Below are positions 2,080-2,273 of a stretch of 64,000 bases of DNA, one piece after another. Source of the DNA: Rhizobacter sp. AJA081-3. GTDB lineage: Bacteria; Pseudomonadota; Gammaproteobacteria; Burkholderiales; Burkholderiaceae_C. The DNA is taken from contig NZ_CP059067.1 of the NCBI RefSeq assembly GCF_017795745.1, positions 2,294,001 to 2,358,000 on the forward strand. Reading direction: 5' to 3'. The notes under the pieces were generated by a model. The model saw nothing but the letters and a program-made list of their open reading frames with translations. It was not told where the DNA came from and made no database searches. Within the stretch, counting starts at the first letter, position 1; every line of letters begins with the position of its first letter. Both the position numbers and the translations under genes were made by a program.

Positions 2080-2121
2080 AAAAACCCGAAAGCCCGGGTC
2101 CTTGCGGTCCCGGGCTTTCGG
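2080..2121 (-). terminator. Intrinsic terminator downstream of the LexA-box microgene
   Basis: Perfect 13-bp inverted repeat (arms 2086-2098 and 2109-2121, CCGAAAGCCCGGG and its complement) with a 10-base loop. Read on the minus strand it is followed after one G by TTTTT, the form of a rho-independent terminator. On the plus strand no T-run follows, although it may still help to end the 84-aa gene transcript. Confidence 0.8.
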
Positions 2122-2131
2122 CCGTCTGGGG

Positions 2132-2215
2132 TCAGAGCCAGGTCCAGATGCGGCGCAACCAAGTCGGTGCGCGGTTCGGCTTGGGTCGATAGAGTTCGCG
2201 GAACGTGGATTGCAT
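2132..2215 (-). CDS. Predicted SOS-controlled microprotein (27 aa)
   Basis: A short frame encoding 27 aa, beginning MQSTFRELYRP and ending TWLRRIWTWL. It carries five Arg, one Lys, one Glu and three Trp; the C-terminus could form a short cationic amphipathic helix. A perfect Shine-Dalgarno AGGAGG (2224-2229) sits 8 bases before the ATG at 2215; a second ATG at 2221 is only 2 bases from it. Two CTG-N10-CAG boxes lie directly upstream and a strong terminator begins 10 bp after the stop, so the gene forms a complete transcription unit of about 190 bp. No family is recognised. The size resembles SOS-induced membrane peptides such as E. coli TisB, but there is no sequence similarity. Coding status is inferred from context. 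Confidence 0.6.
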   Translation of the reverse strand: MQSTFRELYRPKPNRAPTWLRRIWTWL

Positions 2216-2239
2216 GATCATGTCCTCCTGAGGACTTAA

Positions 2240-2273
2240 CTGTATGCAACATCAGTACTGTATGCAAGCACAG
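2240..2273 (-). promoter_or_regulatory. Two tandem LexA-type (SOS) boxes over a sigma70-like promoter
   Basis: Two 16-bp sites, CTGTATGCAACATCAG (2240-2255) and CTGTATGCAAGCACAG (2258-2273), both match CTG-N10-CAG. The second is flanked as TACTGTAT, the E. coli-like half-site. Read on the minus strand, TTGCAT and TACAGT lie 17 bp apart and could be -35 and -10 elements, both covered by the boxes. The AGGAGG of the 27-aa gene follows about 10 bases after the -10. Confidence 0.7.

Follow-up and report, generated by a model that had tools for sequence, protein, structure and literature searches.

Two proteins hold back cell division until DNA has been repaired: SulA of E. coli, which is the larger and binds FtsZ, and SidA of Caulobacter. 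FtsZ itself carries a C-terminal tail that docks on FtsA, ZipA, MinC and others. SidA of Caulobacter crescentus (29 aa) is described as a LexA-controlled division inhibitor that crosses the inner membrane as a transmembrane protein and binds FtsW (PMC4211646). TisB (29 aa) and DinQ (27 aa) of E. coli are described as LexA-controlled, membrane-inserted helical toxins with RNA antitoxins (PMC8309996). An account of predicted LexA regulons in beta-proteobacteria includes two hypothetical proteins, hypA, for which it reports no homologs outside the beta-Proteobacteria with multiple chromosomes, and hypB, which it gives as exclusive to Burkholderia (PMC3323433).

The locus described here lies in a 64-kb window (the whole stretch of DNA that was analysed) and has the features of a LexA-controlled gene for a 27-aa peptide. 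It resembles SidA in size, LexA control and proposed role, but SidA spans the membrane whereas the peptide family has no spanning stretch, a distinction drawn only from the description of SidA. Size and LexA control are likewise shared with TisB and DinQ, and a net positive charge, as in the peptide, is reported for TisB; neither the spanning helix nor the RNA antitoxin of these toxins was found for the peptide, and here too it is the descriptions that set them apart. The likeness to SulA lies in the proposed role as an SOS division brake, and hypA and hypB are set apart from the peptide by their described distribution alone, not by sequence. LexA-controlled micropeptides are thus a known kind, and the peptide family and the second small protein that accompanies part of it appear to be without known relatives. 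The predicted SOS response of Sphaerotilaceae and Comamonadaceae would thereby gain two unnamed components, a micropeptide family under selection and an accompanying small protein.

The candidate unit is encoded on the minus strand. Box 1 (CTGTGCTTGCATACAG, 2258-2273) matches the LexA-type pattern CTGTN8ACAG exactly and box 2 (CTGATGTTGCATACAG, 2240-2255) has one mismatch; both have the CTG-N10-CAG pattern and their starts are 18 bp apart. Box 1 holds a -35-like TTGCAT (2262-2267), and box 2 together with the next base holds a -10-like TACAGT (2239-2244), giving the arrangement TTGCAT-N17-TACAGT. Judged from the position of the -10 element, the leader would be only ~17 nt long. It includes a Shine-Dalgarno sequence, AGGAGG (2224-2229), 8 nt before the ATG (2213-2215) of a 27-codon frame (MQSTFRELYRPKPNRAPTWLRRIWTWL plus stop, 2132-2215, with the stop at 2132-2134). 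An alternative in-frame ATG at 2219-2221 would give 29 codons and a 29-aa product and lies 2 nt after AGGAGG; the shorter frame is likelier because both the AGGAGG spacing and the starts of relatives fit the ATG at 2213-2215. Sites resembling a Shine-Dalgarno sequence are present at 59 of the 72 distinct loci of the family (loci and genomes carry L and G numbers below). The AGGAGG of the window lies within a perfect palindrome, GTCCTCAGGAGGAC (2222-2235), which can fold over it and may add translational control; similar hairpins are present in L008 and L126 and are not general among the loci.

The frame is followed by a hairpin with a T5 tail, a probable terminator (2080-2121, minus strand), in which RNAfold places the stem region at 2086-2121 and the tail corresponds to A5 on the plus strand at 2080-2084. 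The hairpin adjoins the end of a plus-strand frame (1817-2071) that lies downstream on the opposite strand. Upstream, a terminator-like stem (2324-2356) behind a tRNA-Pro gene separates the unit from that gene; this stem was the only one listed by a terminator scan, which did not list the hairpin at 2086-2121. A scan for sigma-70 consensus promoters reported none on either strand, and the sense promoter of the unit was missed too. All of the elements read by the initial annotation (tandem boxes, -35/-10-like elements, AGGAGG, 27-codon frame and T5 hairpin) are present in the sequence. Two features of this neighbourhood are local: a crude script placed terminator-like sites after only 6 of the 72 loci, so the terminator is no family feature, and a tRNA neighbour occurs in just 7 of 60 loci scanned, so the tRNA neighbourhood is not general either.

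LexA-type boxes are present in the window and in its genome at background numbers. The window contains 10 boxes with up to one mismatch, compared with 17 expected from shuffles, and the whole genome (5.4 Mb) contains 21 exact boxes, compared with 19 for the reversed pattern. The boxes alone therefore prove nothing, and it is conservation that decides. By eye, some of the 21 exact boxes precede frames for DinB, ImuA, a UvrD-like helicase and an integrase; in the window genome lexA and recA each have a box with one mismatch, and imuA has an exact box. An exact LexA-type box of this genome at ~3101375 (L199) lies directly before a frame that by eye resembles an integron-type integrase.

Relatives of the peptide occur in part of its own GTDB family. 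A tblastn search with the peptide in 299 genomes of this family returned a series of matches, and a profile search found at least 60 places in at least 57 of the 299 genomes at E values up to 1.4e-6. The profile was extended in two steps and leaves a clean gap, with nothing between 1.4e-6 and 5e-4; an E limit of 0.05 gives a tally of 91 genomes, and those beyond the gap are left out of the count. A scan of 84,980 genomes with the pattern W-[L/F]-R-R-[ILMV]-W-x-W-[L/F]-stop, which is blind to the boxes, yielded 39 matches, 35 of them relatives by eye, and these belong, where genera are named, to Rubrivivax, Azohydromonas, Rhizobacter, Piscinibacter, Hydrogenophaga, Inhella and Aquincola. The family thus extends over Sphaerotilaceae and Comamonadaceae (Hydrogenophaga being a member of the latter), mostly in environmental bacteria.

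At greater distance the matches become weak. The first profile gave at least 10 weak matches besides the own genome in 300 genomes of the order, and among the matches listed none combines the full motif with a nearby box. L040 combines RQMYSP and PRWL with a box of one mismatch 242 nt upstream but is without the W-x-W end; in L041 the sequence RQFYRP...LPPWKKRIYRW runs up to the stop, and its contig provides only ~50 nt of upstream sequence. A later profile searched in 369 genomes of the class returned the own genome alone among the matches listed, and the peptide had no match in plasmids, in phages or, as a DNA pattern, in viral contigs. Within the family, the frame is open in the close relative L002. 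In L005 (G004, a genome 77% complete) an exact box precedes a frame that is altered close to the C-terminus and does not end there; decay or an assembly error may be the reason.

The boxes accompany the frame across these relatives. A box with up to one mismatch lies within ~200 nt upstream of the peptide match in 31 of 32 loci that were read (30 from the tblastn search in family genomes and two others). At the 60 family places such a box is found within 150 nt upstream in 52 and within 420 nt in 58, and an exact box in 41 and 45 respectively. Control windows of 420 nt, drawn from the whole of the same loci and not from intergenic DNA only, contain a box with up to one mismatch in 82 of 1250 cases and an exact box in one of 1250. 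Over the 72 distinct loci, the 150 nt before the start contain a box with up to one mismatch in 66 and an exact one in 54 (controls, 34/1440 and 0/1440). Of ten non-homologous matches, two show a one-mismatch box at up to 200 nt and none an exact box. Two loci found last and outside the building of the profile (L158 and L159) both have a box in their upstream sequence. Of the 35 relatives from the pattern scan, 34 have a box with up to one mismatch within 250 nt and 29 an exact one; the single relative without a box, L080, is among 13 that had already been met, and the 22 new ones are all boxed, 19 exactly. None of the four unrelated pattern matches (in Pyrinomonadaceae, Sedimentisphaerales, Alphaproteobacteria and Clostridiales) has a box within 250 nt. 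As such, a LexA-type box is conserved at the predicted promoter of the peptide gene in relatives, and a short protein profile paired with an operator can find genes of fewer than 30 codons with conserved repressor sites.

The promoter geometry is also retained where boxes occur in tandem. Two or more boxes are present within 150 nt in 23 of the 72 loci, and 17 have two boxes 18 bp apart. Among 19 tandem loci with a spacing of 17-19, a TTG in box 1, 17 nt and the TACAGT of box 2 recur in 14, the departures being L022, L051, L084, L133 and L146. At loci with this 17-nt hexamer geometry LexA would therefore cover both promoter elements. The tight, cooperative repression suggested earlier for the window is plausible on this account, but most loci of the family have a single box.

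The frame itself has the substitution pattern of a coding gene. Uncorrected pN/pS is 0.27 over 19 disjoint pairs of relatives, with 131.7 synonymous changes over 376 sites and 109.3 nonsynonymous changes over 1163 sites; one pair, L023/L051, has a value of 1.11. This ratio indicates purifying selection on the 27-codon frame. The alternatives of a small RNA, or of a frame and boxes that coincide by chance, would agree with the background frequency of the exact box pattern and with the 181-nt fold (z-score -2.4, with the terminator hairpin as its strongest part), but they are scarcely credible given the conservation at the protein level, the pN/pS value and the retention of boxes in dozens of genomes. 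We consider it highly probable that this is a real peptide under LexA control, as had been proposed from the window alone.

The 64 distinct peptides are 26-36 aa long (median 27) with a net charge of +1 to +7 (mean +4.8), and share motifs at both ends. The N-terminal motif is R-Q-x-Y-x-P (R-E-L-Y-R-P in the window peptide) and is followed by a proline-broken linker. The C-terminus of relatives is mostly P-x-W-L-R-R-[IVL]-W-x-W-[LF]-stop, and the window peptide ends TWLRRIWTWL. Counted from the end, P is present at -11 in 63 of the 64, and W at -9 in 58, at -4 in 61 and at -2 in 63; 51 peptides have three Trp, and the last residue is L in 35, F in 27 and C in two. In each of the 60 family members, no more than three residues separate the end of the profile from the stop.

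The initial annotation knew of no described family for the peptide, and none emerged from the searches. Three peptides compared with Pfam and NCBIfam matched no family, SulA included, at E values up to 10. When all 64 members were compared, PHROGs gave scattered weak matches (best 0.011) and Pfam a best match of 0.0064 (Mso1_Sec1_bdg, seven members), both taken as chance, with no match to SulA in Pfam; the best PDB match, at an E value of 8.9, is not convincing. No description of the peptide was found in the literature within scope, most subscription journals lying outside it.

A second small gene accompanies part of the family. A protein of ~65 aa is encoded beside the peptide gene on the same strand in 21 of the 72 loci by profile search, and additionally in L130 and L137. 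It follows the peptide in 17 of the 21 and precedes it in L031, L080, L136 and L138; in L076 frame coordinates place the partner core after the peptide. The partner has the motif RYVWESRFGxMLIEV...YVNGxxVEP (for example in L011, L050, L136 and L138). No family was matched in Pfam (3 and 16 proteins) or NCBIfam (3 proteins), solved structures gave nothing convincing (best E 0.47), and plasmids, phages and viral contigs contained no match. An AlphaFold2 model is of low confidence overall (mean pLDDT 69.1), its better part being a core of four strands at residues 28-56. Since the partner lies beside the peptide in 21 of 72 loci, part of the family would form a two-gene SOS unit. The description of the locus as a minimal unit accordingly fits the window but not those 21 loci. 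In G097 three partner-plus-peptide units are present (L136, L137 and L138), in which F replaces the first Trp of the peptide.

The second gene also bears on the loci without a near box. In most members of this kind another small gene precedes the peptide and the box is found at a greater distance upstream, clear cases of a small gene between box and peptide being L080, L130, L136 and L138; L025 and L035 just have a longer stretch between box and peptide. The two family places with no box of up to one mismatch within 420 nt are L031, which has a two-mismatch box only, and L137, whose exact box lies 360 nt ahead of the partner core.

These arrangements raise the possibility that the peptide is one half of a two-protein SOS module, in which the acidic partner acts with the cationic peptide or neutralises it. 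The pairing survives although the order of the two genes swaps, the partner is negatively charged in 14 of 16 proteins (mean -2.25, compared with +4.8 for the peptide), and it is also under selection (pN/pS 0.27 over seven pairs). However, 51 of the 72 loci, that of the window included, are without a partner nearby, and none was found in the 64-kb window or in the sequence flanking the 21 exact boxes in its genome. In L150, moreover, the partner frame contains a stop codon although that of the peptide is whole, and we regard a module of this type as unlikely.

Other neighbours are mostly local. Five gene clusters recur in at least three of the 72 loci: the unit with its partner, a polymerase cluster and three 3-locus clusters, which are found among close relatives, apart from one that links L003 with L121 and L122. 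Division genes have no neighbourhood link to the peptide gene. Four peptide genes of a divergent branch (L142, L145, L146 and L150) stand head to head with genes related to one another, of which the L145 one was identified as DNA polymerase II, and the peptide gene of L033 is head to head with a DEAD_2 helicase. The box is shared with the neighbour in these five loci and is therefore weaker evidence there. Such neighbours would suit a peptide whose target is not division but the repair machinery, be it RecA, a translesion polymerase or the clamp; sharing of a LexA box explains them, however, and besides the partner no neighbour recurs widely. No clamp-binding motif was recognised in the peptide, which we take to count against an action on repair, and we judge that explanation very improbable.

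We tentatively favour a different role, that of an SOS-induced micropeptide acting at the membrane surface to delay cell division, similar in role to SidA and seemingly unrelated to it. LexA would occupy the two boxes, and with them both the -35 and the -10 element of a short promoter, and its cleavage upon DNA damage would free the promoter. The very short leader and strong ribosome site would then yield a burst of the 27-aa peptide, whose C-terminal Trp/Arg segment may form a short helix along the membrane's inner face, and the peptide would hold back division until the DNA is repaired. Contact with the membrane surface is the more probable part of this scheme, and we think it rather likely; control of division is a possibility to which we give somewhat less than even weight. 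In the segment PxWLRRIWxWL-COOH the hydrophobic residues fall on one side of a helix, and over the last 10 residues the helical moment is weakly above that of shuffles (17 of 64 peptides below 0.05). The maximum 15-residue hydropathy over the 64 peptides is 0.67, so a membrane-spanning helix is not predicted. Against the division role stand the lack of a spanning stretch such as SidA has, the missing neighbourhood link to division genes and the recovery of the peptide from 57 of 299 family genomes only, a lower bound.

The division brake is favoured because there is no spanning helix in the peptide and no SulA is recognised in this lineage. The SulA profile PF03846 matched 21 of the 299 family genomes, 15 of them above the Pfam cut-off, and the window genome (G000) is not among them. 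Eight of the matches were read (L111-L118); they are all alike and ImuA-like by eye. Two matches compared with NCBIfam are above the ImuA cut-off and far under the SulA cut-offs, and the imuA product of G000 likewise passes the ImuA cut-off and falls far below those for SulA. For the other 13 matches the assessment used the length of the frame alone (246-387 aa), with the exception of G087, a partial match with stops. A genuine SulA was thus not recognised in the 299 genomes, whether the peptide is present or absent, and for this reason the idea that SulA and the peptide are complementary in distribution was dropped. The peptide makes testable how bacteria without a recognised SulA stop dividing upon DNA damage.

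The same physical properties can be read as those of a membrane-active peptide that disturbs the inner membrane, lowers cellular energy and produces dormant, tolerant cells in the manner proposed for TisB and DinQ. The size class and LexA control are those described for these toxins (PMC8309996), and the peptide is cationic and Trp-rich with an Arg-rich C-terminal segment. However, none of the 64 peptides has a spanning stretch, the predicted leader is too short for a structured 5' region of the tisB type, and the conserved N-terminal motif exceeds what membrane activity needs. No antisense-like promoter appeared in the promoter scan, the one that overlooked the sense promoter too, and no Rfam RNA other than tRNA lies nearby. 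A TisB-like role, to which the locus had been likened at the outset, is therefore not established, the tests for an RNA antitoxin being weak ones, and we consider it rather unlikely.

A more specific form of division control is suggested by the tail of FtsZ, with which the peptide can be aligned. The peptide segment [V/A/L/T]-P-x-W-L-R-R corresponds to I-P-A-F-L-R-K of the FtsZ C-terminus, but differs in having Trp for Phe, usually no preceding acidic residue and an additional IWxWL. The peptide could thus be an SOS-induced decoy in which the C-terminal V-P-x-W-L-R-R imitates the FtsZ tail, a proposal that we consider quite improbable. If it were true, a membrane-bound burst of peptide would pull FtsZ tethers and regulators off the Z-ring, giving a division checkpoint by mimicry without a recognisable SulA, with the acidic partner as its tuner. 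Mimicry of the FtsA membrane anchor was considered as well and rejected, since the FtsA tails of six genomes end in sequences like WFLGNF-, WFIGNF- and FIVGNF- and are by eye too unlike the peptide.

The statistics of the FtsZ likeness, which was noticed after the peptides had been seen, are suggestive at best. The tail pattern [VILAMT]P.[WFL][LIM][RK][RK] fits 39 of the 64 peptides, and for 44 of the 64 the best FtsZ-tail score is matched by under 5% of shuffles; 227 of 41,417 eleven-residue stretches from ORFs of the window reach as good a score against a consensus peptide. The FtsZ tail is itself constant, with IPAFLRKQAD present in all 11 genomes in which FtsZ was found, out of 12 searched (G002 gave none).
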